A stretch of 26,526 nt of DNA, from positions 1 to 26,526 of the IMG/VR virus record IMGVR_UViG_3300020462_000038. One strand, written 5' to 3'. A program made the translations under genes and the position numbers. Under the pieces are notes generated by a model, which saw only the letters and a program-made list of their open reading frames with translations, did no database searches and was not told the origin of the DNA. This DNA is from a virus. Positions 1,748-22,461 of this stretch are shown here, piece by piece; position 1 is the stretch's first letter, and every line of letters begins with the position of its first letter.

Positions 1748-1750
1748 GTA

Positions 1751-2227: not shown

Positions 2228-2233
2228 TGTTCT

Positions 2234-3151
2234 TTAAGTGTTAGTTGTTCCCCCACGAATGTCTCCGTCTCCAGAGCCATACGTACCGTATTTATGATTT
2301 ACCCCTTGGATACCCCATCCTTTAGTTCCACCGTTACCGCCAGAATTTTGTCCGTCTTGTCCAAGATTACCACCTTTACCTCCACCAGTTGCTCCACCGC
2401 AACCGCCAGCTGATCCAGGTCCTCCACCAGCAGTTTGAGAACCGCCAGATCCATTGCCTCCCTGTGGGTTTGTGTTAGGGCAAGTGCCACCACTACCGCC
2501 AGGAAAACCAGCACCACCGCCACCTCCTCCACCCCCAGACTGGGAGTATTGAGTTTGTTGTTGAGCACACTGTTGTCCCTTCATGCAAGAAACATTCTGT
2601 GTAGTTTGATAACTGCACTGTCCGTGGTTACCAGCACCACCTCCACCACCGCCACCTGCGATAACACCTGCATTATTTAATTTGAATGGAGTACCACCAG
2701 AATATAATGCACGTTGTCCATTTTGTCCATTACCACCAGAAGCATTACCTCCGTTACCACCACGTCCAGATATTTTCTTACCACTATTGACTACTAATAA
2801 TATTCTAGAGCCGTTCTGATAGTTATTTAAGTTTACCCTCTGTTGTGCATTATTAACAACTACGACACCTTTGATCTTATTACCAGTATATCCTTGTCCA
2901 GTAATATATGTTGATAGTGACCACTGATTTTCTGCGTTAGTTGATAGTGTAGTCTTGAATAAGAAATGCTCTCCTTCATGGACTAATCTCCATGTACCAC
3001 CAGATTTATACCATACTTCTTTAACATCTTTCCATCCATCTGCACCAACATGTTTATAAACATCTTCTACATAACGCCACGCGAACATATGTCGTCGCGA
3101 CACGTGTGTACCAAGTTCATCAGCCTCTGCTTCTGTATAAGGGATTGCCAT
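2234..3151 (-). CDS. Glycine-rich tail-fibre adhesin-like protein
   Basis: A 305-aa protein. Residues 1-125 form a beta-rich base (VWYKSGGTWRLVHEGEHFLF, then ILLVVNSGKKISG). Residues 129-300 are dominated by glycine in GG-x-GG-x-GG patterns with two runs of eight (166-173 and 206-213 region). The stretch KLNNAGVIAGGGGGGG matches the style of glycine-rich phage tip proteins. Glycine runs of this kind fold as stacked polyglycine-II helices in the gp38-type adhesins of T-even relatives such as S16, where the loops between runs contact the receptor. Five cysteines (179, 189, 195, 224, 251) lie in or beside the Gln-rich loop at 179-204, so disulphides or metal binding are possible. It follows the large fibre gene by 16 bases. 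Likely role: host receptor binding at the fibre tip. Confidence 0.75.
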   Translation of the reverse strand: MAIPYTEAEADELGTHVSRRHMFAWRYVEDVYKHVGADGWKDVKEVWYKSGGTWRLVHEGEHFLFKTTLSTNAENQWSLSTYITGQGYTGNKIKGVVVVNNAQQRVNLNNYQNGSRILLVVNSGKKISGRGGNGGNASGGNGQNGQRALYSGGTPFKLNNAGVIAGGGGGGGAGNHGQCSYQTTQNVSCMKGQQCAQQQTQYSQSGGGGGGGGAGFPGGSGGTCPNTNPQGGNGSGGSQTAGGGPGSAGGCGGATGGGKGGNLGQDGQNSGGNGGTKGWGIQGVNHKYGTYGSGDGDIRGGTTNT

Positions 3152-7826: not shown

Positions 7827-7838
7827 CTCTTAAAACTC

Positions 7839-8867
7839 TTATGAAGGTATTTCAGCAGATTCTTCAAACCCTATGAAGGTTGCAGTAACTGCAGCAGAAC
7901 AATTAACAAATAGGGTCTGGTAAGTACCTAATACTATTCCACCCACTTCAAGTGTAGAAGCGTCAGTGATTTGCTTGTTACGAACTATGTACTGTTCGGG
8001 AGCCGCCTGACTAACACCAGATACTAACAGTTCAATACCATTAGCAGTGATAAACTCAGTAGTAACTGTTGAGTTTGATGATGCAAATCTTGTTTGTGTA
8101 GTAGCAACTGGACTGTATACATTAGCATAAGACCTATTTAAGTTACTATTACCTAATTCACGGTTTTCATTATTTACGTCACCAAGAACTGCCCAATCCA
8201 AATTATTTCTAAATTCATAGTTTTGTAGGAATAATCTACCCTTGTAAGTGTCATAGAATGAAACTATACCAGAGTGTCCCTGACTTGAAGCACTACCTGC
8301 ATGTGATGCACCAAATTCAAATGTCCCACCACCACTTGCAGTAACAGTAACAGTGGTGTTTTGTACGTTTAAAGCATCAGGTTTTGACAGATTTCTCAAC
8401 CAAATTTTATTATTTGCTGTATCGTGATATAATACCGTCGCTGTCTGTGCTTGAGGTGTCAACGTAGTATTATTAAATGTTAATGTCTCATTAGCGTTGA
8501 TTGTACCAGTTAAGTTAGCATACTCAACATATATTGAGGAAACATATGAGTTTTTAGGGAAGCTAAAATAAGAGTAATTTAAATATGATGCACTCGTGCT
8601 AGGGTTATTAGGTTGTGATGCTAACGCATCAAACTGAATAATATCTGATTGCTCTACAATTGCAACATCAACGTTGACAGCACCACCAGTATTATTTGCA
8701 AGCATTAGTTTGCCACTTGCTAAACTAGCACCAGGACATGTATAAAAAGCAAATCCAGTACCAGTAGATACAGTATTATTTGGATGTGTCTCAGAAAGAG
8801 AGTTGTTTGTATATGGGGTAACTGTCGGAGTATAAGTTCCAAGTACCCCGTTCTGTTTCGTCGCCAT
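7839..8867 (-). CDS. Virion structural / fibre-associated protein, 342 aa
   Basis: No named family is recognised. The composition is that of a virion beta-protein: rich in Asn, Thr, Ser, Ala and aromatic residues, few charges, no repeats and no membrane segment. It begins with MATKQNGVLGTYTPTVTPY. A C-terminal stretch (VRNKQITDASTLEVGGIVLG, then FVNCSAAVTATFIGFEE) looks like a small beta sandwich. It sits between two fibre genes, separated by 2 bases from the 533-aa gene and 12 from the 1552-aa gene, so it is probably made with them as a fibre connector or decoration. Position and composition are the only evidence. Confidence 0.65.
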   Translation of the reverse strand: MATKQNGVLGTYTPTVTPYTNNSLSETHPNNTVSTGTGFAFYTCPGASLASGKLMLANNTGGAVNVDVAIVEQSDIIQFDALASQPNNPSTSASYLNYSYFSFPKNSYVSSIYVEYANLTGTINANETLTFNNTTLTPQAQTATVLYHDTANNKIWLRNLSKPDALNVQNTTVTVTASGGGTFEFGASHAGSASSQGHSGIVSFYDTYKGRLFLQNYEFRNNLDWAVLGDVNNENRELGNSNLNRSYANVYSPVATTQTRFASSNSTVTTEFITANGIELLVSGVSQAAPEQYIVRNKQITDASTLEVGGIVLGTYQTLFVNCSAAVTATFIGFEESAEIPS

Positions 8868-8869
8868 GA

Positions 8870-10471
8870 TTAGTTAAATGAATGGAAGTATACTTTTGCT
8901 CTACTTAAACCACCAGCATTACCTGCGGCTAATGTTGTAGAAGCTCCTGTTTGAGGATCCGTTAGAACGACCTCTCTAGCGGTAATTTTACCACCTGTAT
9001 TGTTTGCAGTGTTGGTAGTAACAACAACCACATCACCGTCAATGTTGGCATTACCCGAAACATCTAAAGGTTGTGATGGTGTCTTACCAATACCTAATTG
9101 GCCTGATCCACTGAGTACCATTTGATCAGTACCTGTGTCATCAGTAAAGTGCAAACCAATACCAGTAGCACCTTTTTGAAGTATGAATTTACCAGCACTA
9201 CCGTTACCAGCAATGATTGTAGATCCTGTAGAGTATATAGAACCCTCAACTTCAAGGTTATATGTTGCTGCAGCTCTACCAATACCTAGTTTGGCAGATG
9301 CAGACGAACCAAGTTGGAATGTAGTTCCACTTGATGCGGTGACGTTACCGCCACCTGTAATGTTGCCCCCGAATACAGCATTGCCATTAGTACTATCCAG
9401 AGTAAACTTATCAGTAGCAATAGCGATGTCGCCACTACCTGTGATAGATGTGACAGCATCAATCGCTCCTCCTATGTTTATTCCTGTTGCACTCGTTGTG
9501 ATACGAGCAGCGTCGTTATGATATATTATAGTATTTGTTGCATCGCCATATACCCACTTGACAGTATGAGCAGCGTTCATCAAAAACATTTTGTCACTAG
9601 CAAGAACTAATCCATTGGCAGCTGTGCTAGTAACGTAAGATGAGTCACCTGTGTTTAGATATTTGATCTGTAGATCATCGTCTGCACCCAATTTGATGAC
9701 TTTATCATCAGTCATGTCAATGTGACCGTTTGCAGTTATATCCTGTGTAACTGTTAATGTCTGTTGACAAGCGACAGTATTTGAGAATGTAGTTGCTGCA
9801 GCAAAAGTTGGTGTCGAATTTACAGTAAAAGTATCGGAATCGGCATCTCCTAAAGTAACATTACCACTGCAATTCATTGCATCAATGGTAAGTGTTCCTG
9901 TAAATGTAGGACTTACTAAAGTTTTATTGCTTATTGTTTGTGTCGCAGCTAATGTAACTAGAGTATCGGATGTAGCGATTGCACCGTTAGAAGGTAACAC
10001 ATAAGTATGTGTCACACCAGTCGGCATATCAGCTGTACTAAATCTTGCTACCTTTGTCTCATCAGATGAGTTAGGTATGATAAAGTTGAGATCATTGATC
10101 GCTAGAATAGAACCTAGACGTATCTTACCATTTCCCTGTGCAGAAATGGTGAAGTCTAAGTTAGTATCAGCACTATCTTTTGCTTGTATATTAAGCGTGC
10201 TCCCTACTTTTTGAAGATGCAGTCTAGCATCTCCCATTGCAAGTCCCACCTGTCCTTGAGCTTCAGAAAAAACACCAGTTGATGTCTTGCCTTCAAATCC
10301 TAAACCAGGCGTACTTACTGTACCTGCAGGTACTGCTCTAAAAATACTACCTACCTGAGCTCGTTTGTTCTGATCGGTTGGATCAGAGTTATCGAGAAGT
10401 AACAGAGTATCAGCAGACGCAACAGATCCTGCTATTAATTCAGTCAGGTCAGATATCTTACGTGTTGCCAC
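8870..10471 (-). CDS. Tail-fibre protein, 533 aa
   Basis: The N-terminus (RKISDLTELIAGSVASADTL, then LLLDNSDPTDQNKRAQVGSI) is the attachment-type start common in marine T4-like fibre proteins. A TISNKTLVSPTFTGTLTI motif and a ladder of beta repeats follow (GNVTLGDADSDTFTV, KVIKLGADDDLQIKYLNTGD, GDIAIATDKFTLDSTNGNAVFGG as separate repeat units). The C-terminal part (LGIGKTPSQPLDVSGNANIDG) resembles fibre shafts and ends VYFHSFN. The start codon is GTG (10471-10469), with no strong ribosome binding site but a perfect T4 late box 29 bases upstream. It is the first gene of the fibre transcript. Trimeric shaft folding is inferred from the repeats. Confidence 0.78.
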   Translation of the reverse strand: MATRKISDLTELIAGSVASADTLLLLDNSDPTDQNKRAQVGSIFRAVPAGTVSTPGLGFEGKTSTGVFSEAQGQVGLAMGDARLHLQKVGSTLNIQAKDSADTNLDFTISAQGNGKIRLGSILAINDLNFIIPNSSDETKVARFSTADMPTGVTHTYVLPSNGAIATSDTLVTLAATQTISNKTLVSPTFTGTLTIDAMNCSGNVTLGDADSDTFTVNSTPTFAAATTFSNTVACQQTLTVTQDITANGHIDMTDDKVIKLGADDDLQIKYLNTGDSSYVTSTAANGLVLASDKMFLMNAAHTVKWVYGDATNTIIYHNDAARITTSATGINIGGAIDAVTSITGSGDIAIATDKFTLDSTNGNAVFGGNITGGGNVTASSGTTFQLGSSASAKLGIGRAAATYNLEVEGSIYSTGSTIIAGNGSAGKFILQKGATGIGLHFTDDTGTDQMVLSGSGQLGIGKTPSQPLDVSGNANIDGDVVVVTTNTANNTGGKITAREVVLTDPQTGASTTLAAGNAGGLSRAKVYFHSFN

Positions 10472-10499
10472 AGAATGTCTACAATAAAACGTTCATGTA

Positions 10500-10507
10500 T
10501 ATTTATA
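10500..10507 (-). promoter_or_regulatory. T4-type late promoter (TATAAATA) for the fibre operon
   Basis: The minus strand reads TATAAATA, identical to the T4 late promoter -10 element, which is used by the gp55 sigma factor with the gp45 clamp. Transcription would start near 10493, giving a leader of about 20 bases before the GTG start at 10471. The box overlaps the cpeT stop codon, so it separates the accessory cassette from the fibre block. Confidence 0.7.
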
Positions 10508-10943
10508 CATCCTTATCAAAGATAAAATATCCTTCTGCTGACTGCCACCATCCAACATCCCATGAGTGATATGCATCTTGGTATAACTTTGCTTTAGATA
10601 TCAGTGGTTTGCCCTTATATGTACACTCTCCTAGGGTACCACCAACGAAACAACTATCCTTTTCGATGAATGAAAATATTTGATCACACACTGGGTTCTT
10701 TACTATTATAATGTCTTCTGTTGCACCCAATACCCATGGTGCAGTCACTTCTACCTCTTGTTCTCTGTATGGTTTATCAGGTTGATAGTTGTAACGATTG
10801 CTCGTTCTAAACTTTCTATCCCCTATTTTCTCATGAGTTACAAATATATGTGACCATTTTGTAGGATTAGATGATGCCTGTGTCCAGTTATCAAATCTAC
10901 CTTCAAACCATTCACAAAATAAATCTAAAACTTCAGTGGACAT
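10503..10943 (-). CDS. cpeT: CpeT-like phycobiliprotein lyase (auxiliary metabolic gene)
   Basis: The 146-aa product matches the CpcT/CpeT lyase family, which attaches phycoerythrobilin or phycocyanobilin to a cysteine of phycobiliprotein beta subunits. Visible family features are the N-terminal EWFEGRFDNWTQASSNP (residues 11-27) followed by HI, a PYR motif at 58-60, and a C-terminal GECTYKGKPL then HSWDVGWWQSAEGYFIFDK. Host enzymes are about 200 residues, so this is a shortened phage type, as in other cyanomyoviruses. It overlaps the upstream 228-aa gene by 19 bases and ends inside the fibre late promoter. It is the last gene of a cassette with its own sigma70-like promoter. Likely role: influencing the light-harvesting antenna during infection; chromophore specificity cannot be read from the sequence. 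Confidence 0.85.
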   Translation of the reverse strand: MSTEVLDLFCEWFEGRFDNWTQASSNPTKWSHIFVTHEKIGDRKFRTSNRYNYQPDKPYREQEVEVTAPWVLGATEDIIIVKNPVCDQIFSFIEKDSCFVGGTLGECTYKGKPLISKAKLYQDAYHSWDVGWWQSAEGYFIFDKDV

Positions 10944-11611
10944 TTACTTTCTTTCTTAACTCTATTCATAATCAAATCCCACACCTTGAACTTAGTATAG
11001 TATCTCATCAAACTATGTTCTTCATTTTGCTTCTTAAGGTCTGTTGGTAATGCTTTCTTCTCTAGAACAAAATTAGCATCAGATCTTTTAGAATAGAACT
11101 TAACATAGCACAAGGGAGTGCCTTTTGGTAAGAATAGATTTACATTCTTATCTATGATCTTTGCACCCATGACTAATGGCCTGAACCATACAGATACTGG
11201 GAACGTTGCAGGTATCAACTCTAATCCATATCTACTCAATAATGGATGTGGTATTTGTTCTACCCATACATCCTTATCTCTTGTCCAGAAATATTGTACG
11301 AATTGCATCTGTATTTCTGGATACTCACCCTCTAACCACCTCTCACCTATATGAAAATATTCATTATAAGCGTCTTGGTTCATATCAGTCTTGATTGACC
11401 GATTTTTATCATCATATTGCATACCAAGATCGAACGGTTGATTTATAACCCAACAGTTGTCACCCCACTTTTTCCATGCAGGACATTTTGAATGATCATA
11501 TTTGGTGTCATAACCAGTCCGAAATTTTTTTGGTATTTCTACGTAATCATCGGGTAAAGGATATGAACTTGGATTACGACCTATACCATAATCCCAGTAT
11601 ACTTTCTTCAC
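10925..11611 (-). CDS. Hypothetical 228-aa protein in the ACP-cpeT cassette
   Basis: The family is not recognised with certainty. It has a Cys-containing motif [19 protein letters not shown] (residues 43-61), aromatic-rich strands ([20 protein letters not shown]) and a segment [10 protein letters not shown] then [15 protein letters not shown]; the end is basic ([11 protein letters not shown]). The pattern of a Cys/Trp N-terminal motif followed by a beta-barrel-like region faintly recalls the uncharacterised DUF6065 proteins, but I would not rely on that. It overlaps the ACP gene by four bases and cpeT by 19, so the three are probably co-translated. A cytosolic role linked to ACP or CpeT is suggested by position only. 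Confidence 0.72.
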
Positions 11612-12081
11612 TCTTCCTCTTCTAGTGCTTTATCCATTTCTGCATCGAACTCTGCTGTTTTCTTAGCAGCAGCATCTGCCTGAGCACGTGCTGCCTTTGC
11701 AGCAGTTAGAGCTGCATCTGGATTTGCTGCCTTCTTGTACTTAGATACATTAATCTTTTTCTTCTTACCCTTATTTGCTTTCGCTTTTTTAATTACTTCG
11801 ATAGCATCACCAACTGTGACAATATCTCCTGCATCTTCATCAGGTATCTCAACAGCAAAGCATTCTTCCAAGAACATGACAAGTTCTACCATGTCTAGAC
11901 TGTCTAGTTCTAGATCATCACTTAACTTAGAATCCCATGTCACTTCTGTTTGAAGTTCTCTGGTTTCACCCATAGTCTCAATGATTGCCATCTTAGCAAC
12001 CTTAAGCATAGTCATTTTAGAGATCTTCTTGTTGTCCTTAAGGATCTGCTTTATTTCGCTATAAGTTTTGTTATAAGACAT
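11608..12081 (-). CDS. Phage acyl carrier protein with Lys/Ala-rich C-terminal extension
   Basis: Residues 23-100 form a carrier-protein domain. The signature [20 protein letters not shown] contains Ser61, the expected 4'-phosphopantetheine attachment serine of the D-S-L motif, followed by the conserved acidic helix and [21 protein letters not shown]. ACPs are normally about 80 residues; this one is 157. It has a 20-residue N-terminal addition and, after residue 100, a Lys block ([10 protein letters not shown]) and an Ala-rich predicted coiled coil ending in EEEE. It overlaps the 61-aa gene upstream by one base and the 228-aa gene by four. It would need a host phosphopantetheinyl transferase for activation. 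It may redirect host acyl chains or serve a phage reaction; the substrate is unknown. Confidence 0.85.
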
Positions 12082-12266
12082 TAAACGTACACTACCTCAT
12101 CATTTAAACACAATTCTCTGATTAATTCAAGAATTCTCATGAACTGGTCACCATCATCACAGTCTATAGTTTTCAGTTGACCATCACTACCTAGTAGTGT
12201 AAACCTTCTTTTGGGAATGTCAACCGTCACCTTATCAAGGACAGCATTGTCATCTTCAAAATTCAT
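12081..12266 (-). CDS. Hypothetical 61-aa protein, first gene of the ACP-cpeT cassette
   Basis: A small acidic protein without a recognised domain. Its sequence ([18 protein letters not shown], then [18 protein letters not shown]) suggests a beta hairpin followed by a helix. Its stop overlaps the ACP start (TAATG), so it is likely coupled to it. It begins 24 bases downstream of a near-consensus sigma70 -10 box, making it the leader gene of the cassette. The reading frame is supported by this tight arrangement, not by any known family. Confidence 0.65.
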
Positions 12267-12289
12267 AGGATAATTCCATCAGTACGATG

Positions 12290-12318
12290 ATTATAGCAAA
12301 TTATTTTAGGTTTGTAAA
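12290..12318 (-). promoter_or_regulatory. Near-consensus sigma70 promoter for the ACP-cpeT cassette
   Basis: On the minus strand TTTACA (12318 to 12313), a 17-base spacer and TATAAT (12295 to 12290) form an almost perfect host promoter; the only mismatch to TTGACA is at one base. Transcription would begin near 12283, leaving a leader of about 16 bases before the ATG at 12266. The -35 box overlaps the end of the upstream 78-aa gene. Confidence 0.65.
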
Positions 12319-12537
12319 GTAGGGTGTGTCACTTTTTCTGCTGGCACGACGGTGCACCTCAGATGCCTTGTCCATGAGAGACTTACCTGTATCACGGTTT
12401 TCTTTCATATTCTTGACCATATCTGTATTATTTTTATCTTCTTTAGTTAATTCTTCGACGTAATCGTCTAAATGTTTTGCAAGAATACCTTTTATTAACA
12501 CAGCTTCTTGCTTAGTTACTGACATGTGAAAAGTCAT
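12301..12537 (-). CDS. Hypothetical 78-aa basic helical protein
   Basis: No family recognised. The sequence is charged and probably all-helical (KQEAVLIKGILAKHLDDYVE, then RDTGKSLMDKASEVHRRASR), with equal Lys/Arg and Asp/Glu. Two in-frame start codons are possible, Met1 and Met5 (MTFHMS); neither has a strong ribosome binding site. It follows the needle gene by 22 bases and is the last gene of the baseplate run before the sigma70 promoter of the accessory cassette. It could be a small baseplate or regulatory protein. Confidence 0.6.
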   Translation of the reverse strand: MTFHMSVTKQEAVLIKGILAKHLDDYVEELTKEDKNNTDMVKNMKENRDTGKSLMDKASEVHRRASRKSDTPYFTNLK

Positions 12538-12559
12538 TTGTGTTTCTAGAAATCGACAT

Positions 12560-13432
12560 TCAATTCAAGTAAATAGCGGAAGCATCCATATCTATGTTGC
12601 CACCTGCTGCTACTACATAGTTGCCACTGGTTGCAGTATTCATTACTCCAGAGACATTAATATCATAACCAGCTGATGCAGGTGCGGATATCATTCCCTC
12701 GAATGCTCCTCCGTTTATACAACTAAAACTACCACCACTGATGTTAGTTCTAACCTTACCACCCACGTCGGTCATAAAATTACCACCGACTTTATCGTAT
12801 CTGCAGTTCTCTGCACCGATACGAACATCTCCATCACTCTTTATAGAGAATGTAGATGATTCTTTTTGGATCTTAACTTCATAATTACCTTTTACATTCT
12901 CCTTGACGGAGCCACCTTCACTCAAATCATTGTACAAGAACGTTGTCTTGTTTGTGTATGCATTGGACTGAAGTTTCATTTCATTCTTAGCTTGTATTGC
13001 TAAGTTCTCTTCAGCTCTCATAAACATCACACCACCACACTTCATTTCCCAGTTTCCGTTGACTTGATCGTAACGGTCACCCTCAACTTCAGTGTGCATG
13101 TCACCTTCAACATAGAGATTAACATCACCTATGACTTGTAGTACTACTCTGTCAGTTTTGACATCAGTTCCTACTTTTATAACAAGATTGTGGTCTGATA
13201 AGATATATGTATCATTATAAGACTTTAGAGTTGTGTTGTTTTTCTCGTCTAAATCGAGGAAATTGCCGTTTCCGTTCAATAAACGAATCCTTTCACCATC
13301 TTTGGTATTGTTCATTTCTAGAACATGACCACAAGATGTTGTCTGGACATAGTTCTTTGGATATCTTACTCTTATAGTAGGACTATCATTCTCTTTAGTG
13401 TTTCCACCAGTAAATAAATTAACGTCAGCCAT
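12560..13432 (-). CDS. Baseplate needle protein, gp5 C-terminal/VgrG-like beta-helix
   Basis: The 290-aa product resembles the C-terminal part of T4 gp5 and the needles of VgrG proteins. An N-terminal domain (residues 1-90) is followed by a ladder of short V-x-G-x-x-x-x-x-V repeats (VIGDVNLYVEGDMHTEVEGD, KVGGNFMTDVGGKVRTNISG) and a terminal DMDASAIYLN that matches how such needles end. These repeats build an intertwined trimeric beta-helix used to puncture the outer membrane. The start codon overlaps the stop of the gp5-like gene (TAATG), so the two parts of T4 gp5 appear here as adjacent coupled genes. T4 gp5 is itself cut into two chains after synthesis; here two genes replace the cut. A separate tip protein is not seen. 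Confidence 0.78.
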   Translation of the reverse strand: MADVNLFTGGNTKENDSPTIRVRYPKNYVQTTSCGHVLEMNNTKDGERIRLLNGNGNFLDLDEKNNTTLKSYNDTYILSDHNLVIKVGTDVKTDRVVLQVIGDVNLYVEGDMHTEVEGDRYDQVNGNWEMKCGGVMFMRAEENLAIQAKNEMKLQSNAYTNKTTFLYNDLSEGGSVKENVKGNYEVKIQKESSTFSIKSDGDVRIGAENCRYDKVGGNFMTDVGGKVRTNISGGSFSCINGGAFEGMISAPASAGYDINVSGVMNTATSGNYVVAAGGNIDMDASAIYLN

Positions 13433-16209
13433 TAGTATCCATAACCTCCTCCACCTTGATTAGGTGTATTACTTGGTGTGCTTGGTGTTGATGGAGTGCT
13501 CGGAGTGCTAGTAGATGGATTTACAGGAGTTGTCACTGGATCAACATTAGTTGGTGTACTTGGAGTTACAGTAGTTGTAGTGGTTTCTGAGCTCAAAGTA
13601 TTGGTAGTAGTTTCTTCTTTAACTTCTCCTACCAACATTGGGTGTCCAACACAGTCTATGTAGGATGTGAGAGGTAAAAGAGAGGTCTCTTTAATCTGTC
13701 TAGGTCCATTATATGCATAGACTGGAATGATATTTCCACCAGTACCAGTAGGAGTTTGACTACTAAATCCTCTGTCTACAACAACAGGTTTGATAAATCC
13801 AAGAACCTTTTTAGTAATCTTAGGTTCTACTAGAGCACCATTAGCATCTATAGTTACAGTGCCTATCTCTTGTTCATTAGGTCCTGAACCAATAGTAATG
13901 ACTGGGTTGACATAATTACTTCCAACGTTATCTAACTTGATCTTATCAATAATAGGAATAAGGTCACCACATTTAGCATATATTGCAGTAGCTTCTTCTG
14001 GGAAGACTAACTCTGGATATTTTTCATTGAAGTTAAGTGTGAATTGATATCCTGATTTAGTTTCAAGAACTACTCCAGTCTCTAAATTAGTATTCCAAGA
14101 TGGATCTATGGTGGCAAATGTCATTAGATCATCACTAAAGTTAGTATCAACTACTTGTAATACATCAGGTTTCGTAATATCTTCGGTTCCATTAGCATAC
14201 TTGACAAGCATTAGATACTCACCATCATTAAGGTTATTGACTATTGCACCTTTAGGAACGGTAACTACATACTGTTCTTTAGGGCAGAATGTTGTTGCTG
14301 GATCAAATCCATATCCAATACCAGGCTTGATGACTTTCACAGAATCTACCTGACCATCAATAATAGTAGGTTTCAATATAGCACCACTACCCTCAGGTTG
14401 ATTACAAGTAAATTGAGCTCTGACCTGTGCTTCTGTGTTAACATTACTTCCTTTACGTTTCATAAAGATACCAAGGATCTGTCCAATATCATCCACAATA
14501 GGTAATGCTTTAATTGGACTGGTTGATCTGAGGTTATCCCATACCAACTCAGGGAAACATGGTTTCTTATTAAGAATACTATTGGAACAATTGACAGTGG
14601 CAGAGCTTATATTACCATTACTATCATAGAAATTCAACCCCTCAAACTTCTCTAGAGCACCTCCAGTCTTGAAATTATCAGCAGATATACCAGATGTCTG
14701 AGATATTGCAGAGTTGAGAGGATATCTAACACCTGTTTTTGTATCAAATATTTGTTTCTCTCCGTTACCACTTAGGAATGGGACAAATCCTTTCGTAGGT
14801 TTACCATTACCAAGAACAGTTCCAGAGTTAGGTGGTGCAAATGGATATTGTGATACTTGTTTTTCTTTTGCATCATTACCTTTAGCCTTAGCCCCAGTGC
14901 CAGTTTCAAATACAGATGCACCAATAGCACATGAAACAGCACCATCACAAAATAGATCTATGATATCAAAAACTTTACTAAGAATACCTTGAATTTGACT
15001 AGCAGCGTCCTTGATAGATCCAGTGATACCTTTAAGTATACTCAATGCAGCCTTTATCTTGCCCATTATCTGACCCATAATGGATCCGATTATATCTTGT
15101 ATCAAACAAAGTGCAGTGTCTAAAACATTTTCTAAAAGATCTTTTAAGATACCTTTTATAAAATCACCTAACTCACTAAGTAATTGTTTGAACAAACAAG
15201 ATACTAAGTCACCAACATTTTTTAGTTGATCTCTAACTGCAACATCTAATTCTGGATCTGGGATACCAATATTATTAAGACCTTCTTTTACGAGTTTGTC
15301 AACATCAGTCATGACAACACCTTTGATGTTGGCAGTAAGACCTAGCATTTTTCTTTGTATTCTCTCTGCAGTCTGTGATATCTTAAGATCTAAATCTATG
15401 ACAGCACCAGTTGCTACTTCAATATACTCTCCTATAGAATTTTGTTCAATACCACGGGAGAACTTCATAAATTCAGCAAGAGGTCCTTCTAACTTTGTTG
15501 CAGTCTCTGATCCACACTTACCATTACCAACTTGTACTGTTACTTTCTTTGCATCATCAGCGGCCTTCTGTGCTGCTGAGTATTGTTCATCTCCACCACG
15601 AGGATTTCTAGTGCTACCAGCAACCGCAATACCATCACTTTTGGTAGATGCTGTATCTAAACCAGTATTATCATCAGTTTCAATGGTGTTACCTGTGCCA
15701 GGTACACCACTTCCTGAACTTCCGTGAACTCTTTCATCATATTCAGGGGCAGCTAGTTGTGCAAATCCAGTTTCAGATCCTTTCTCAGTTCCATATGCAC
15801 CTATAGGATTTTCATCACCAACAGCACCCATAACAATAGGAACCTGTGCAGCTGCACCATCCATGAAGAAACCAATGACCCAACTATTGATTTGTAATTG
15901 ATGATGTCCTCCAATACCTGATCTTTGTGGCATTGTTACGGGCATCAAACATAAAGCCCATGGTAAATCTTCTGTTGGTAAATCAGCTTTATTATCGGTA
16001 TGATACCCTACAATCCTGACCTTAACTTTGTTAGTCCAGTCCCAATCAGATGTATCAAATCCTTTACCAGAGAATACATCTAATATTTCACCACCAACAT
16101 TTTCTGTTACTTCTTTCCAAAATGTGCCAGCACCATCGTTCTCAACTTGACCTATCCACCAGTTGAACCCTTCCTTACCTATAAAATTAGCAGTTGCTTC
16201 TATACTCAT
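13432..16209 (-). CDS. gp5: gp5-like baseplate hub protein with OB fold, no visible lysozyme
   Basis: A 925-aa product. Residues 15-140 match the gp5 OB-fold domain: WWIGQVEND, then KVKVRIVGYHTDN, LPTEDLPWALCLMPVT, SGIGGHHQLQINSWVIGFFMDG and a following PIVMGAVGDENP. T4 gp5 continues with a lysozyme domain; none is recognisable here. Instead there is a linker, a long hydrophobic amphipathic helical region (about 320-430), two beta segments with GIGYGFDP/VGSNYVNP motifs, and a Thr/Pro/Ser-rich tail (about 875-915, repeated STP units) ending GGGGYGY. It overlaps the gp27-like gene by four bases and the needle gene by one. Role: central hub joining gp27-like protein to the needle. The central helices may contact the tail tube lumen or the host membrane. 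Confidence 0.78.
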   Translation of the reverse strand: MSIEATANFIGKEGFNWWIGQVENDGAGTFWKEVTENVGGEILDVFSGKGFDTSDWDWTNKVKVRIVGYHTDNKADLPTEDLPWALCLMPVTMPQRSGIGGHHQLQINSWVIGFFMDGAAAQVPIVMGAVGDENPIGAYGTEKGSETGFAQLAAPEYDERVHGSSGSGVPGTGNTIETDDNTGLDTASTKSDGIAVAGSTRNPRGGDEQYSAAQKAADDAKKVTVQVGNGKCGSETATKLEGPLAEFMKFSRGIEQNSIGEYIEVATGAVIDLDLKISQTAERIQRKMLGLTANIKGVVMTDVDKLVKEGLNNIGIPDPELDVAVRDQLKNVGDLVSCLFKQLLSELGDFIKGILKDLLENVLDTALCLIQDIIGSIMGQIMGKIKAALSILKGITGSIKDAASQIQGILSKVFDIIDLFCDGAVSCAIGASVFETGTGAKAKGNDAKEKQVSQYPFAPPNSGTVLGNGKPTKGFVPFLSGNGEKQIFDTKTGVRYPLNSAISQTSGISADNFKTGGALEKFEGLNFYDSNGNISSATVNCSNSILNKKPCFPELVWDNLRSTSPIKALPIVDDIGQILGIFMKRKGSNVNTEAQVRAQFTCNQPEGSGAILKPTIIDGQVDSVKVIKPGIGYGFDPATTFCPKEQYVVTVPKGAIVNNLNDGEYLMLVKYANGTEDITKPDVLQVVDTNFSDDLMTFATIDPSWNTNLETGVVLETKSGYQFTLNFNEKYPELVFPEEATAIYAKCGDLIPIIDKIKLDNVGSNYVNPVITIGSGPNEQEIGTVTIDANGALVEPKITKKVLGFIKPVVVDRGFSSQTPTGTGGNIIPVYAYNGPRQIKETSLLPLTSYIDCVGHPMLVGEVKEETTTNTLSSETTTTTVTPSTPTNVDPVTTPVNPSTSTPSTPSTPSTPSNTPNQGGGGYGY

Positions 16210-17495
16210 CCTGATATACCAGTATTATTTTCTTTCATACCACTAGTTCTAGTATCTTCAGAGCCAGGACTATCAGTAAACAATGTTAGTTTAGTATTCA
16301 TTTGATTATTTTTAGTCAGGAACTGACGTTGAACTCTACCAACAACGTATTTACCACTGTTCTGCACATCTAGTTCTTGTTCTTTACCTTTAAATACCAT
16401 CAACTCTACCACCATACCAACAGTCATTTCATTAGTTCCTACATATTCTACTTCTACTTCTTTATTGAAAAATAACTTTTCTCTCAATGCAGCCTGTGAT
16501 ATTTGTGCTGTCATACCATCAGTATATGTACCCTCGGTATACAATGCAGTATCGAGAACTTTAGACATATATCTTGTTGCTGCAGTTCCCTTCTTAAATT
16601 TACTATAGTACTCTGGAACTGAATAGTTCTTATTCATCAAAGGAATGTCTTCATAATATTTATTGATGTTAAAAGGAAACTGTTCGTACTTCATATCCTT
16701 AACATCCAGTGTCATTACGTTACTAGCATAAGAACCCATATTCAAACCTCTCAATACATCAGATGATTTTTTAACAATCATTTTATCGACTGGTAGAATA
16801 TTCTTATCCTCCTCTTCTTCCATTTCTTCTGCCTTATGCCCGACTACAATTTTTCTAACTGGTTCTTCCCTTGTAAATGAATCATAGGACTTAAAATTAT
16901 ATCCAGAATTATTTTGGAAGAAACAATAACCAGCAGATGCGTTTTTGCCACCAGCAGACTTAGCAGAAATTGCTTTACTGCATAACCATTTAATTATAGT
17001 AAATGGAGCCCAGAATGGTGATATAAAAGAAATTTTATTAACGGTCTCTTCGATACTACCCTCAATATCATAAACAGTATTTAATTGTTTCCCAAGAAGA
17101 TCTTCAGCAACAATCTTACTAATTTTGTCACCTCCCCCTTTACCAAAACGTTTAGATAATTTTGTAGCAGCATTGTTAATCATATCAGGTGTGCATAATA
17201 ATAACGTGGCTTTAGATGATCCACCCTTCGTAACTCTGTCCTGTATATCATAGATGACCATATAATTTGCTATCGCATTTCCTTTATGATCTTCCCATCC
17301 AATGAACACTGGTTCCATTCCTTGAAGTGATGACACAAGACCAGTTTGACTGTCAGTTATCTGCACTTCCATTCTGATACTAGCACTTCTAATATCTTCA
17401 ACATAGTTGATATACAGCAAATGATTGATATTAAGAAGGGGATACTCTCCTATCCTAAAATCTACTAGATTAAAATTAGATTCTGTAATGTTCAT
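16206..17495 (-). CDS. gp27: gp27-like baseplate hub subunit
   Basis: The 429-aa product is close in size to T4 gp27 (391 residues) and lies directly upstream of the gp5-like gene, overlapping it by four bases. The N-terminus carries hub-type beta strands (SASIRMEVQITDSQTGLVSS, then EPVFIGWEDHKGN), and residues 155-176 hold ISFISPFWAPFTIIKWLCSK, a helix-forming motif of myovirus hub proteins, followed by GYCFFQNNSGYNFKS. The end is polar and disordered. gp27 forms a trimeric torus that adapts the six-fold tube to the three-fold spike and binds gp5. Assignment rests on motif style, size and position rather than clear identity. Confidence 0.68.
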   Translation of the reverse strand: MNITESNFNLVDFRIGEYPLLNINHLLYINYVEDIRSASIRMEVQITDSQTGLVSSLQGMEPVFIGWEDHKGNAIANYMVIYDIQDRVTKGGSSKATLLLCTPDMINNAATKLSKRFGKGGGDKISKIVAEDLLGKQLNTVYDIEGSIEETVNKISFISPFWAPFTIIKWLCSKAISAKSAGGKNASAGYCFFQNNSGYNFKSYDSFTREEPVRKIVVGHKAEEMEEEEDKNILPVDKMIVKKSSDVLRGLNMGSYASNVMTLDVKDMKYEQFPFNINKYYEDIPLMNKNYSVPEYYSKFKKGTAATRYMSKVLDTALYTEGTYTDGMTAQISQAALREKLFFNKEVEVEYVGTNEMTVGMVVELMVFKGKEQELDVQNSGKYVVGRVQRQFLTKNNQMNTKLTLFTDSPGSEDTRTSGMKENNTGISG

Positions 17496-18856
17496 GAGAA
17501 TTGGGATGTAGAAGCGTATTCATCAAAATATGGAGACAAATCTATGACAGGAGCAGCCTCTGCACCTCCTTCTGGACTCTTAGTTGGAGGAGGAGTTGTT
17601 GAGATTGCGGGCATTGCAATTTCACTAGCTATATTTTGTTTAGTTATTTCAGTGTTGTGCGTAACAAGATCTCTATTTTCAGTGATAACATTGTTAGTTA
17701 ACTCATTTAGGTCTGTCTTTTGCTCATCATTTTGGGCAAACAAATTATTATGCACACTCTTCATTGCCTTATAACCAGCTGTAGCTAACATGGCTGCAGG
17801 TGAGAACATGAGTGCCTTCTTAGCAAAACCACCCAAGTTACCAAGAAATCCACTTTTCTTATTCACATTCTGTGTGATATTTGTACTTGAATCACCAAAA
17901 CTAATATCCATTGGTACAATACCATCGGTACGAGTTTTCTTACGAGATCTTACTGGTTTACCGTCACCAAGTCCTATACCATCAGCAGTTCCTGTGTATG
18001 GTGCTCCCTGTACATATCCATCACCCATTTTTACTATACTAGATGTTGGCAATGCTAGTTGATCCTTAGCAGGTGGTAACAATGGAGTTGTAGATGCTAC
18101 GTCATCGGAACCCGATCCTCCTCCAAATTTACCTGCAATGGCATCAATACCCATAGCTCCATATAATACTGCCAACTCACCAATAGATTTTGTTTTTACC
18201 TTCTCCTCTTCGTTTTGTACTCTTTCTTCACCTGTAGGAGGGGGAGGTACATTGAAAGCACTACTTACTTTTTGTACTTCAGTTTTTACAATATCTGAAC
18301 TGCCAGGTATTGAAATTTTAGATAATAAATCTGCTAGTGCAACTGCAGCTGCCCGAGCTGGCAATGCCATTGACTCAGAGAATGCTTTTGCTAACTTATC
18401 ATCTAACTTAAAGTCTTCTAATACAGCACCTGTGACCTTAGTTAAATCGTTTGTTACTCCTGCCTCTGCTAATGATTCAGTCTGTTTATTAGTCTGAGGT
18501 TGATATGTACCACTACTGTCTGGTAACATATCAATGATAGGATTGTTGCCAACGACACCACCCTGACGCATTTGTTTAGGTTGCGACTGTTGACTTGGTT
18601 TATTAACTTGAATAGTATTAGGTGCTATTTCATTTACGGGACTTAAATCAAATCCTTTACGAGATATTGGTTGTACATCTAATCCACCAGTGTCATCTAG
18701 TGACTGTAACTTCTCAGCTAATAAAAAATCTTGGAATAAATCCTGTCTGTACATAGACTTTAATAGTCTATTACGATCTTCAATCAGTCCTAGCAGACCA
18801 GTTCCTTGATCTAACAGTTGTTCCTCGAATGGATATGCTTCGTTAATATTAGACAT
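17492..18856 (-). CDS. Hypothetical baseplate hub-region protein, 454 aa
   Basis: No family recognised. The N-terminal 90 residues are helical (EEQLLDQGTGLLGLIEDRNR). The middle is low-complexity with Gln, Pro, Ser and Gly, interrupted by an Ala-rich helix (SESMALPARAAAVALADLLS). Residues 347-366 (KALMFSPAAMLATAGYKAMK) are hydrophobic and could cross a membrane or line the tube, followed by an Asn/Asp/Thr-rich coiled stretch and a Pro-rich tail. It overlaps the gp27-like gene by four bases and the M15-peptidase gene by eight. It occupies the place held by T4 genes 28/29 (hub and tape measure), which makes a hub or tape-measure component plausible but unproven. Confidence 0.68.
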   Translation of the reverse strand: MSNINEAYPFEEQLLDQGTGLLGLIEDRNRLLKSMYRQDLFQDFLLAEKLQSLDDTGGLDVQPISRKGFDLSPVNEIAPNTIQVNKPSQQSQPKQMRQGGVVGNNPIIDMLPDSSGTYQPQTNKQTESLAEAGVTNDLTKVTGAVLEDFKLDDKLAKAFSESMALPARAAAVALADLLSKISIPGSSDIVKTEVQKVSSAFNVPPPPTGEERVQNEEEKVKTKSIGELAVLYGAMGIDAIAGKFGGGSGSDDVASTTPLLPPAKDQLALPTSSIVKMGDGYVQGAPYTGTADGIGLGDGKPVRSRKKTRTDGIVPMDISFGDSSTNITQNVNKKSGFLGNLGGFAKKALMFSPAAMLATAGYKAMKSVHNNLFAQNDEQKTDLNELTNNVITENRDLVTHNTEITKQNIASEIAMPAISTTPPPTKSPEGGAEAAPVIDLSPYFDEYASTSQFS

Positions 18857-20858
18857 ATGCTACCTCCATTCTTGCTCCCTTATCAAAAGTATCAATAATT
18901 AATGTTCTTCTAATTTCCTTTGTCTCTTTCTGAGCCATAGGTACGGGTACAGTAACAGTTGTTGATATAGGAACAGGTATCATACTTGGTTGAGTTGCAA
19001 TTAAGTCCGAGTTCTTATCTAGTTGATTAACTGGTTGATTAGAAACTATTTCCTTATCAGTTTGTGTATTTGGTGGAGTTATATTTCCCCTACCCATCAT
19101 ACCAAGACCTCCAAGTGCACCAACTGTTGCTCCCACTTTCTTCTTTACATTCTTTACATTCGTTTCTTCTATTGGATTAGGTGTTATATCTTTCTGAATA
19201 TTATTTGGTTGCAATTCATCTAAATGCTTTGTATTACTCTCATTATTAACAAAATTAAAGTGAACTGGGTCACCATCACCTTGCCATTCAAATCCAAACT
19301 TATTGCCATTAATTAACATCCATTTATGGGCATCAGTATTAAGACCAAGATCAATACCCCAACCTTGTTGGTGTGGTGATGCTCCAATCTCTGCAACTTG
19401 TGCAACACTAGGATCACCAGCATCTTGTAAATCTAACAACTGTTGCTGTTGTTCTGGCGACCTAAATGATGAGTTAACACCTGCAGCTAGATCAACACCA
19501 TCACCTGCAGCAGCCCTAACTGCCTTTTGCCATGCATTCTCAGTTGAACTATTCAATACAATTGGACTTCCAAACCTATCATTACCATTACCATCACTCG
19601 GTATCTTCACCTGTTCAGAAGCATCTGAAAAAGGATTTGGTTTTGCTCCTGATCCACGTTTATTTAATTTCTTTTGTTTCTTTGCTAGTTCTTTCGCATC
19701 AATCTCTGCCTTTACTTCATCGAAAGTCTTTCTTTGCTTTCTTCTCTTTGCAACTCTAGACTCACCACCACTCTTGGCTGCTTCCTTTAAACTTTCTTTT
19801 TCTATACTTTCAAGATCTAAGTCCTCTTTCTCAACAGTAGAAGTAGATGAAAATGTAATTGGACTTTCTAATCCAACTGATAATGAACTACCATCACCTT
19901 TATCTGTTATGCCAAAGATTGCTGCTAGTCTATTTGCATCACCTAATACAGCAGTTTTTCCTGGTGATGATGGAAGTCCAGATAGAAAATCTTGTGATGT
20001 ACCTATGAATACTTGAGCACCATCCTTATATAACATTGCAATAACATCACCCAACTCATCAACTGGGAGTACTATTTCAGCCCCATCTTCACCTATAATA
20101 GTTTCTGTTGGTTGTGTATACATGCTAGTTAAATCTTTGTCTCCAAGTTCTGATCCATATACTGCACCACCAAGACCAAGACCACCACCAAAGAAAATGT
20201 ATTTGATGAGACCTGCACCTATTGTCAAAGGAAGCAACTGGAATCTGTTAATAAATTCTCCAGCTGTTATCGCTCCATCTACTGTGTTATCCCAAACCTT
20301 ATCCCATGCTATACCGCTATCTGGCACATCAACACTACCTGCACCTGATGATATTGGATCTACTGGAAGATCTTTATGACCAGTTCTACTACGATACTCA
20401 GCAAAGGATTCTGCTGGAACTAGTGGTGCCTGTGGCACGAGGGCTGGATCTTTTGCTGGTTCCCTTTCAAACTCTTTTATATCATTCGCACCGTCATCCT
20501 GTTTATCTTTTTTTGGTACAATAACAGGTACAGGTACGTCACATTTTTCTTTTTCGTCTTCTTGTTTCTCTTTCACTCTTTCTGGTACGAAAAGAGGGAC
20601 AGGTATAGGAACTCCAACACCACCAAATCCACGAGGTCCTCTTGGATTTCTTCTTGGTGTTGGATTTGGATCATCAGGAAATTTTCCTGAACCTAATCCA
20701 TTTGACATTATATTTCTTACACCAATATGAAATCTCTTTCTATCTCTTAAGTATTTTAAATAATTAAGCTCAGTGACAAGCAACTTATCCATCGAAGCTG
20801 CAAATTGTTCCCCTACGTCTAGGACTGATTGTTGTAACTGTTCTTTTGATTTAGACAT
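18849..20858 (-). CDS. Tail-associated M15 (VanY-type) peptidase in the baseplate hub
   Basis: A 669-aa product. A helical N-terminus (1-50) is followed by a Pro/Arg/Lys-rich region with VPIPVPLFVPE and VPVPVIVPKK, a hydrophobic segment at 206-234 and a Lys-rich stretch at 368-402. Residues 440-540 form an M15 peptidase domain: SSFRSPEQQQQL, then SPHQQGWGIDLG with zinc ligands His496 and Asp503, and DPVHFNF with His533 and the catalytic acid at Asp530. M15 enzymes cut the peptide stems of peptidoglycan (D-Ala-D-Ala carboxypeptidases and L-Ala-D-Glu endopeptidases). Placed among hub genes, it probably opens the wall during DNA entry, replacing the lysozyme missing from the gp5-like protein. 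The ATG overlaps the gp51 stop (TAATG). Confidence 0.8.
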   Translation of the reverse strand: MSKSKEQLQQSVLDVGEQFAASMDKLLVTELNYLKYLRDRKRFHIGVRNIMSNGLGSGKFPDDPNPTPRRNPRGPRGFGGVGVPIPVPLFVPERVKEKQEDEKEKCDVPVPVIVPKKDKQDDGANDIKEFEREPAKDPALVPQAPLVPAESFAEYRSRTGHKDLPVDPISSGAGSVDVPDSGIAWDKVWDNTVDGAITAGEFINRFQLLPLTIGAGLIKYIFFGGGLGLGGAVYGSELGDKDLTSMYTQPTETIIGEDGAEIVLPVDELGDVIAMLYKDGAQVFIGTSQDFLSGLPSSPGKTAVLGDANRLAAIFGITDKGDGSSLSVGLESPITFSSTSTVEKEDLDLESIEKESLKEAAKSGGESRVAKRRKQRKTFDEVKAEIDAKELAKKQKKLNKRGSGAKPNPFSDASEQVKIPSDGNGNDRFGSPIVLNSSTENAWQKAVRAAAGDGVDLAAGVNSSFRSPEQQQQLLDLQDAGDPSVAQVAEIGASPHQQGWGIDLGLNTDAHKWMLINGNKFGFEWQGDGDPVHFNFVNNESNTKHLDELQPNNIQKDITPNPIEETNVKNVKKKVGATVGALGGLGMMGRGNITPPNTQTDKEIVSNQPVNQLDKNSDLIATQPSMIPVPISTTVTVPVPMAQKETKEIRRTLIIDTFDKGARMEVAYV

Positions 20859-21022
20859 TAGCGACTACGACGTTGCTCTTCTATTCGCTCCCTTTCCTTT
20901 TGGAGGTGAGCAGATAACAGGTTAACATAGACATCTCGTTCCCAAGGTATCATATTGTCAATATCTGTCAAACTATATTTATGGTGTTGAACCAGAGAAA
21001 AATTGGTTTGATAGAAAGTCAT
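20858..21022 (-). CDS. gp51: gp51-like baseplate hub assembly protein, 54 aa
   Basis: Reading the minus strand from ATG at 21022 gives a 54-residue product, MTFYQTNFSLVQHHKYSLTD at its start, followed by IDNMIPWERDVYVNLLSAHL and a charged helix ending EEQRRSR. The NFSLVQHHKYSL and IDNMIPWERDVYV motifs match the short gp51 of marine T4-like phages; T4 gp51 (249 aa) is a catalyst of hub assembly. It lies between gp26 and the M15-peptidase gene, ending in a TAATG overlap with the latter. Its GAGG ribosome binding site, five bases before ATG, is inside a perfect hairpin formed with the gp26 stop region, suggesting translation coupled to gp26. Small size is the main reason it would be missed. Confidence 0.78.
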   Translation of the reverse strand: MTFYQTNFSLVQHHKYSLTDIDNMIPWERDVYVNLLSAHLQKERERIEEQRRSR

Positions 21023-21024
21023 CA

Positions 21025-21044
21025 AGCCCTCATGGAAGAGGGCT
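21025..21044 (-). promoter_or_regulatory. Hairpin sequestering the gp51 ribosome binding site
   Basis: On the minus strand AGCCCTC (21044-21038), a TTCCAT loop and GAGGGCT (21031-21025) pair perfectly. The GAGG that would serve gp51 is in the 3' arm and the gp26 stop codon (21045-21043) overlaps the 5' arm. A ribosome finishing gp26 would open the stem. No U-tract follows, so it is not a terminator. Confidence 0.5.
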
Positions 21045-21741
21045 ATGCGAAAAAATCTGCTAGACCCTCTATCGTGATGTCATTTACCTTCTTAGTCTTA
21101 GGGTTTGTGACCTTAAGTGTATGCCTAAGAGTTGGCATTGTATTAAAAAATTTCTGTATCATTGAGAACTGAGAGTTAGTTAAACCCTCTACCCAATCTC
21201 TAGCTTCTTTGAAAGTAAACTCACCACTATCCTCTGTGCCAACATATACTCTCTTGATGCATTGAGCAACTAGATCGTAAGGATCTACTTTCTGTTTGGC
21301 AAAATTAACCTTAGTAAAGTATTCTAAGTTAGGATACTTCATCTCTAAGGTGATGTCATCAGTCAACTTAAGAACATTCTTATGTCCTTTAGGAAAGAAA
21401 ACTTTAACATCATCTACCATAAATGATATATTAACCTCTGTCTCTCCATCATCAGGACATCTTACTTTCATCTCAATCTCTTCACTGATTGATCTTGCAC
21501 GTACTTGTAAGAAAATATATTCTATATCAAACAAAGCCATATCATCTATATTAACTTTTGAGTTGATACAGTTTGACAGTATAGTTTTGATTGCATCCAA
21601 GATCTGTTCTTGATCTTGAGACTCCATAGAAATGATTAATGTTTTCTGTTCCTTAACGAGGAACGGACGATATTTAATTTTCTTTTTTGTAGAAGGCACC
21701 GTCAACGTATACGTTGGCGTAACAATTTCAGGTAATGGCAT
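21043..21741 (-). CDS. gp26: gp26 baseplate hub subunit
   Basis: The 232-aa product fits the T4 gp26 family (T4 gp26 is 208 residues; Pfam T4_baseplate). The start MPLPEIVTPTYTLTVPSTKK leads into KYRPFLVKEQKTLIISMES (residues 24-42), the typical N-terminal block. A RCPDDGETEVNISFMVDDVK motif follows, then the acidic KLTDDITLEMKYP region and a C-terminal helical domain with FKEARDWVEGLTNSQFSMIQ. It is the second gene of the minus-strand hub operon, three bases after the gp54-like gene, and its stop lies in the gp51 hairpin. It acts in assembly of the baseplate hub in the infected cell. Confidence 0.85.
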   Translation of the reverse strand: MPLPEIVTPTYTLTVPSTKKKIKYRPFLVKEQKTLIISMESQDQEQILDAIKTILSNCINSKVNIDDMALFDIEYIFLQVRARSISEEIEMKVRCPDDGETEVNISFMVDDVKVFFPKGHKNVLKLTDDITLEMKYPNLEYFTKVNFAKQKVDPYDLVAQCIKRVYVGTEDSGEFTFKEARDWVEGLTNSQFSMIQKFFNTMPTLRHTLKVTNPKTKKVNDITIEGLADFFA

Positions 21742-21744
21742 AAT

Positions 21745-22434
21745 TTATTCGTTGACAGAATTGGAACTAATTAGATGACTGTACTCGTAGTAGAAACCAA
21801 CAGTAACTTTCACAAGTTGTGTAGCTCCAGCTGAGTAAGGTATAGATGATACAGTGTAGGGATATGCTTTAGCAAGTCTTGCATTAAATGCTACTTTATA
21901 ATCTTGCTTCTCACCTCTATCATTCTTCTCTATACCATATTTTTCTAACTTATGTATAAGTATATCACAAGTGTAGTCATTATAGTATCTTTGTGCATAT
22001 GCTAGGTGTTGGTACTTTGTGAGAGAGCTCTCTTGAGAGTAACCCGTGACTGGATTTTCTAATGCACCCATAATATAATCTTGCCATGATCTAAAGAATA
22101 TCAATGGTAATGACTCAGCATCACAATAAAAACTAACATCAAGTTCATTGAAAACTTTAGATGTAGCCATCTTCTGAGTTATACCCTTCTTGGGTTGTGT
22201 TAGATCATGTGATGAGTATGTGACACCAGGCAACTGAATCTCATTACATAGAAGATTCAAATTGATAATGTCATCTGCACCATCGGAACCATAAAAATTA
22301 TTATCTTTCCAATACTGTCTAACACCACCATTACCTGCATCAATACTAAATTGATAGAGGTTAGATGATGATATACCACCCGATCTGGTTAATATCCTTT
22401 CTTTGAAGGTTTGTATTCCAATAGCCTTTGGCAT
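21745..22434 (-). CDS. gp54: gp54-like baseplate tail-tube initiator (tube-protein fold)
   Basis: The product has the signature of the gp19/gp54 tube fold: LYQFSIDAGNGGVRQYW, LNLLCNEIQLPGVTYSSHDL (the C-x-x-x-x-LPG-x-x-x-S motif of tube proteins), then VFNELDVSFYCDAESLPLIF and a final VKVTVGFYYEYSH. T4 gp54 (320 aa) starts tube polymerisation on the baseplate. I chose Met at 22434 (229 residues, MPKAIGIQTFKERILTRSGG) rather than the upstream ATG at 22458. A late-promoter-like box (22462-22469) would start transcription near 22455, after the upper ATG, and leave a leader of about 20 bases for the lower one. If that box is not used, the start is 22458 (237 aa). First gene of the hub operon; divergent from the gp4-like gene. 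Confidence 0.7.
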   Translation of the reverse strand: MPKAIGIQTFKERILTRSGGISSSNLYQFSIDAGNGGVRQYWKDNNFYGSDGADDIINLNLLCNEIQLPGVTYSSHDLTQPKKGITQKMATSKVFNELDVSFYCDAESLPLIFFRSWQDYIMGALENPVTGYSQESSLTKYQHLAYAQRYYNDYTCDILIHKLEKYGIEKNDRGEKQDYKVAFNARLAKAYPYTVSSIPYSAGATQLVKVTVGFYYEYSHLISSNSVNE

Positions 22435-22439
22435 AAATA
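22432..22439 (+). promoter_or_regulatory. Candidate late promoter for the gp4-gp53 operon
   Basis: CATAAATA differs from the T4 late box TATAAATA only at the first base. Transcription would start near 22447, about 23 bases before the ATG at 22470. The box begins exactly at the start codon of the divergent gp54-like gene. Confidence 0.5.
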
Positions 22440-22461
22440 TTAAATATGGTGTGACCATCTT

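Follow-up and report, generated by a model that had tools for sequence, protein, structure and literature searches.

Candidate entry peptidase encoded apart from the spike in the hub operon of a probable Prochlorococcus phage of the T4 type

The DNA analyzed here, a stretch of 26,526 nucleotides (termed the window throughout the paper), was found to carry what we consider likely to be the operon for hub and spike in a Prochlorococcus phage of the T4 type, with the entry enzyme, an M15 peptidase, located off the spike in a slot open to enzyme exchange. The puncturing device would be composed of an OB-fold spike base (925 aa) and a separately encoded needle (290 aa), and a wall-opening M15 zinc endopeptidase domain would be carried by a 669-aa protein of the tail operon, probably placed within the tube or hub. 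The initial annotation of this DNA had already proposed that the functions of T4 gp5 are spread over separate genes. This was supported by the present analysis, with a complete M15 site detected within the hub operon.

Most of the scanned proteins of the window matched phage structural families. The hub operon corresponded gene for gene to that of the Prochlorococcus phages P-HM1, P-HM2 and MED4-213, which share the gene order, the separate needle and an M15 protein at the same place. Identity to these relatives was 73–78% at the DNA level, over short parts only, approximately 60% for gp5 and 32–36% for the M15 protein. By synteny of the hub operon and protein identity the window falls among the Eurybiavirus-type cyanophages, as a new fragment of a T4-type phage resembling Eurybiavirus. 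As P-HM1, P-HM2 and MED4-213, the nearest named relatives, were all isolated on Prochlorococcus MED4, a Prochlorococcus host is more likely than Synechococcus, the host named in the initial annotation, which is probably wrong. Outside of the hub operon, two neighbouring genes (372–1031 and 1028–1747), both assigned to phrog_16242, form a tandem duplication beside the tail fibre genes. Shortly after the needle gene follow genes for a CpeT-like antenna protein and for a protein resembling acyl carrier protein (10503–12081), as in P-HM1 and P-HM2.

All features of the hub operon of the window described below are encoded on the minus strand. The genes for the gp51-like protein, the M15 protein, a 454-aa protein, the T4-GC15 protein, the OB-fold protein and the needle follow each other in this order with overlaps of 1, 8, 4, 4 and 1 bases. 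They are preceded by a second tube-like protein (T4-GC10, 21745–22458; phrog_45 tail tube, 2e-34) at the place of the tube-baseplate junction protein and by a gp26-like baseplate hub protein (21043–21741; PF12322, 5e-64). In P-HM2 a separate gp19 is present. The gp51-like open reading frame (20858–21022) encodes only 54 aa, shares one nucleotide with the start of the M15 gene (TAATG) and resembles P-HM1 gp51 in size and place. We define the slot as the two genes flanked by gp51 and the gene of the T4-GC15 hub protein, which in the window are those for the 669-aa and the 454-aa protein. In the latter (T4-GC453, 17492–18856; phrog_26201, 1e-43) an enzyme domain was not detected, and no hydrolase was found in 37 orthologues of this second-slot family. 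The 429-aa T4-GC15 tail protein (16206–17495; phrog_350, 1e-81) probably forms the hub ring at the position of gp27. No sequence similarity to T4 gp27 was detected, so that its name as hub protein rests on its position. The order tube-like protein, gp26, M15 protein, second slot protein, GC15, OB-fold protein and needle was observed in 25 retrieved environmental contigs, and the others showed the same order as far as it was not cut by contig ends. Similarly, gp51, two slot genes, GC15, gp5 and needle were kept in this arrangement in the named Eurybiaviruses and in environmental contigs.

The 925-aa protein (13432–16209) was identified as the gp5 orthologue. Using a profile of its orthologues, residues 14–136 (15802–16170) were aligned to residues 7–109 of T4 gp5 (E 4e-9), and this OB fold was the only aligned part, leaving the lysozyme part of T4 gp5 without a match. 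Pfam Gp5_OB matched the window protein with an E-value of 9e-5, slightly below the curated cut-off, and 29 of 30 gp5 orthologues, with a best E-value of 4e-8. T4 gp5 was also the sole match of the protein in a PDB profile search. In none of the 30 proteins did Pfam detect a lysozyme, while the same scan of T4 gp5 as positive control recovered both the OB fold (5e-66) and the lysozyme (1e-12). Consequently, the description given in the initial annotation, an OB fold without recognisable lysozyme, held, as the profile search for a hidden muramidase that it had proposed yielded no match. The AlphaFold model of this protein, with a conserved helical region (residues ~240–430) and a beta-rich C-terminal half, was of low confidence (mean pLDDT 47), too poor to decide on a lysozyme either way. 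The gp5 orthologue of P-HM1 (PHM1_022 and PHM1_023, 14442–17223 of the retrieved P-HM1 locus) is split into two overlapping frames, reflecting a frameshift or a sequencing error, unlike the single open gp5 frame of P-HM2, MED4-213 and the window.

The C-terminal beta-helix of T4 gp5 is not part of the 925-aa chain; its homologous segment is a gene of its own. This 290-aa needle protein (12560–13432; phrog_24638, 9e-142) matched residues 383–544 of T4 gp5 with an E-value of 7e-8. Together with the overlap of one nucleotide with the 925-aa gene, this bears out the earlier suggestion of a separate, coupled needle gene. T4 gp5 is cleaved after Ser351 into two chains, by which the beta-helix is parted from the rest (PMC7650644). 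As the needle aligns to the very beta-helix that T4 cleaves off, the gene split falls near T4's own gp5 cut. OB fold and needle are therefore homologous to T4 gp5 at the profile level, whereas a lysozyme domain was not detected, the OB-fold protein is longer (925 aa versus 575 for the entire T4 gp5) and the enzyme is found on another protein and with another chemistry.

This other protein (669 aa, 18849–20858; phrog_23178) is the orthologue of PHM1_019 and PHM2_022 and matched Pfam VanY (28.5 bits at a cut-off of 25) and a PHROG peptidase family (7e-70). Pfam Peptidase_M15_4 gave no match in the window; the matching model was VanY, which was found in 31 of 31 scanned orthologues. Orthologues were obtained from P-HM1, P-HM2, MED4-213 and 72 environmental contigs. 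The 72 loci were found from an alignment of four orthologues; a single-sequence scan, with patterns in variable stretches, found none. In PDB, a phmmer search with the single 669-aa protein gave no match, whereas a profile search placed PLY500 first, its four catalytic positions being aligned with His496, Asp503, Asp530 and His533. By alignment to 2vo9, the zinc ligands His496 (19371–19373), Asp503 (19350–19352) and His533 (19260–19262) correspond to PLY500 His80, Asp87 and His133, and the catalytic acid/base Asp530 (19269–19271) to Asp130; the PLY500 numbering and the roles of these residues we take to be established. All four residues were identical in 79 of 79 aligned orthologues having a residue there, a count partly selected for Asp530 and His533, as the patterns used for retrieving the 72 environmental loci included DPVHF. 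They were likewise identical in 14 of 14 orthologues from an independent gp5-anchored search, which is free of this bias.

The AlphaFold model of the M15 domain (residues 427–550, 19209–19580) was confident (pLDDT mostly 80–96), and its best Foldseek match in PDB was PLY500 (2vo9, E 1.4e-4, probability 1.00), followed by LdcB and LysB4, all of them M15 enzymes. An HxxxxxxD...H zinc site, an acid (Asp530) three residues before the last histidine and the M15 fold were thus all present, the acid being an aspartate as in PLY500 and not the glutamate of the VanX/VanY types. A chance motif was rejected in view of the invariant residues and the fold match, and a frameshift artefact because the same genes are intact in the relatives. 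Taken together, sequence and model point to a genuine M15 domain with a complete site, in agreement with the four residues picked in the initial annotation. If the domain works like PLY500, the bond cut is predicted to be L-Ala-D-Glu. Fold and catalytic residues are shared with the endolysins PLY500 and LysB4, which, unlike the 669-aa protein of the tail operon, are free enzymes used at lysis. Outside of the M15 block the 669-aa protein was largely disordered in the model. Between the window and its near relatives the M15 domain was, at 71–79%, better conserved than residues 61–245. This long N-terminal part (~61–245) is rich in proline and charged residues and evolves fast even in comparison to the nearest relatives.

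The absence of a lysozyme from gp5 is general in the cyanophages tested and not special to the window phage. By Pfam, an OB fold without lysozyme was found in gp5 of S-ShM2, S-PM2, S-SSM7, S-SKS1, Syn33, ACG-2014j, S-SM2 and the Pelagibacter phage HTVC008M (n = 8). When 20 records, including cyanophages whose gp5 was not scanned singly, were searched in six frames with the model of T4-type lysozyme, T4 was the only one with a match in gp5. As this gp5 state is common to the cyanophages tested, it is not a local consequence of acquiring the M15 domain. The standard label of cyanophage gp5 is nevertheless "baseplate hub and tail lysozyme", despite no detectable lysozyme domain in those tested. 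In S-PM2, Syn1 and ACG-2014j the needle is likewise annotated as a gene of its own; these phages resemble the window in the lysozyme-less gp5 and in having slot proteins between gp51 and GC15.

In most of the compared phages two large proteins with various wall-cutting domains were found between gp51 and GC15. Unlike the window with its M15 domain, the slots of S-PM2 and Syn1 contain Phage_lysozyme2 and M23. The slot of S-ShM2 carries Phage_lysozyme2 and C39 plus a T4-type lysozyme, that of S-SKS1 Phage_lysozyme2, P-RSM4 a T4-type lysozyme, P-SSM7 M15_3 and S-BM3 a glucosaminidase. An amidase plus hydrolase_2 were found for Syn33 and an amidase for S-WAM1, with matches that fell just short of the Pfam cut-off when the proteins were scanned, whereas in the genome scan the amidase exceeded it. 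VanY-type M15 was limited to the three Eurybiaviruses among the 20 records. No slot enzyme was recognised by Pfam in S-SSM7, P-SSM4, S-RIM8, S-CAM9, S-SM2, ACG-2014j and HTVC008M. S-BM3 encodes one protein of 1337 aa (7367–11380 of the retrieved S-BM3 locus) instead of two slot genes. The S-PM2p209 slot protein (11357–14860 of the retrieved S-PM2 locus) contains, besides Phage_lysozyme2, an ADP-ribosyltransferase-like domain (PF01129, residues 66–218, E 1e-5), which would be in keeping with a virion protein that is injected.

Marine T4-like phages hence use the slot between gp51 and GC15 for exchanging the wall-cutting domains of their tail proteins. The best evidence for such a swap comes from the comparison of the S-PM2 and Eurybiavirus slot proteins. 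In the Eurybiavirus M15 protein a hydrophobic domain occupies the central part (phrog_23178, ~274–387). It was found again in slot proteins from S-PM2 (E 7e-21) and ACG-2014j (3e-24), with weaker matches in those of S-SKS1, S-RIM8 and S-SM2. As S-PM2 has Phage_lysozyme2 beside this domain where the Eurybiaviruses have M15, the catalytic domain appears to differ on a related backbone. The window copy differs from those of P-HM1, P-HM2 and MED4-213 in the N-terminal part; it and its nearest relatives are without the central domain, so that their link to the backbone runs through the orthologues. The initial annotation had regarded the peptide cutter as a replacement of the lysozyme that may suit the cyanobacterial wall. 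This was rejected, since in sister cyanophages with lysozyme-less gp5 and similar hosts the corresponding slot holds enzymes that cut glycan (S-ShM2, S-PM2, Syn1, S-SKS1, P-RSM4 and S-BM3); a peptide cutter is one option and not an adaptation to this wall.

From synteny and the shared backbone domain we infer that the M15 protein is part of the virion. With a peptidoglycan-hydrolase domain in a tail gene, the 669-aa protein is a candidate virion-associated hydrolase. T4-GC15 and gp5 were detected in S-SM1 virions (PMC3037559). The slot protein of S-SM1 belongs to GC607, a cluster with lysozyme, whose P-RSM4 record reads "similar to Synechococcus phage S-SM1 protein", a note which otherwise marks known S-SM1 virion proteins. 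The hub region of the Anabaena phage A-1(L), with its wall-cutting domains, resembles that of the window; it contains active hydrolases including a peptidase domain active on host cells (PMC10966104). In A-1(L) the hub protein itself bears these domains, whereas in the window the domain is found on a separate protein. Against a virion location, no Eurybiavirus virion proteome was found in the literature searched, and in the proteome list of S-SZBM1 the likely slot genes (numbers 66–68) were absent, which may reflect low copy number or true absence. During entry, contraction of the sheath would drive the needle through the outer membrane. At the tip of the tube, the M15 domain, by then freed or uncovered, would cut the stem peptides, at L-Ala-D-Glu if PLY500-like, opening a passage for the tube or the DNA.

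Alternatively, the 669-aa protein might be a tape measure carrying an M15 domain, like many siphophage tape measures. The slot adjoins gp51, where the single slot protein of HTVC008M (945–3008 of the retrieved locus), annotated as "putative tail tape measure", matches several tape-measure PHROGs. The M15 region matches the tape-measure family phrog_16823, and no other tape measure is annotated within ~176 of the 184 kb of P-HM2. Compared to T4 gp29, however, nothing above noise was obtained for the 669-aa and 454-aa proteins, with the 669-aa protein (P ~0.27) in the same range as shuffled controls. Since the window copy is also largely disordered in its model and its 454-aa neighbour is an equal candidate, we regard this role as somewhat unlikely. 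It differs from the preferred explanation in the structural role and not in the enzyme function. Less probable still is that the M15 protein acts (also) as endolysin, made late for progeny release, with its place in the tail operon being incidental. Phage_lysozyme, Phage_lysozyme2, M23, SLT and Amidase_2 were not found in the whole genomes of P-HM1, P-HM2 and MED4-213 (a GH19 search was void, as its control gave no match), an endolysin is not annotated in ~176 of the 184 kb of P-HM2, and PHROGs labels related slot proteins "endolysin"; the lysis enzyme of Eurybiaviruses could be the M15 protein. But the protein is 5–6 times the size of its M15 domain, has long non-enzymatic parts and sits between baseplate genes, and S-ShM2, Syn1, S-SKS1 and S-PM2 combine a slot enzyme with a separate small lysozyme gene elsewhere, so that the role of the slot can be separated from that in lysis. 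A lysozyme, strongly diverged, or another muramidase persisting in the 925-aa or 454-aa protein, by which glycan would be cut too, would fit the poor model of the former and the P-SSM4 and S-SSM7 slot proteins lacking a Pfam enzyme, which suggest that profile searches may miss enzymes, but is improbable given the empty scans of the 30 gp5 and 37 second-slot orthologues, the alignment to T4 gp5 over the OB fold only, and a low-confidence model with long helices approximately at the T4 lysozyme position and beta-rich segments in the remainder.

With the M15 domain on a tail protein as the favoured reading, the window shows a modest variation on an established puncturing device rather than a new kind of machine. 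Public records have contained the M15 gene and both parts of gp5 since 2010. The P-HM1 and P-HM2 records already name the M15 protein "peptidase M15B and M15C", an annotation of the same year. Syntenic peptidase genes have been mentioned before (PMC3037559); a paper connecting the M15 gene with the split gp5 was not found in the literature searched. Tentatively, and with somewhat less than even confidence, a broader proposal may be made: marine T4-like cyanophages as a group would have transferred the entry enzyme from the needle to a cassette of two genes, located between gp51 and the hub protein, in which glycosidases, amidases and peptidases are exchanged among lineages on a related tail-internal backbone, leaving a peptide cutter as the sole remaining entry activity of the Eurybiaviruses. 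If true, the Prochlorococcus wall would be opened without glycan cutting in this lineage, and the label "gp5 tail lysozyme" would be wrong throughout these genomes. The results correct this widespread cyanophage annotation and indicate the genes in which very abundant ocean viruses encode their actual entry enzymes. The bond cut at entry probably differs between close relatives, and it becomes testable whether the entry enzyme tracks the chemistry of the host wall or is exchanged regardless of it.
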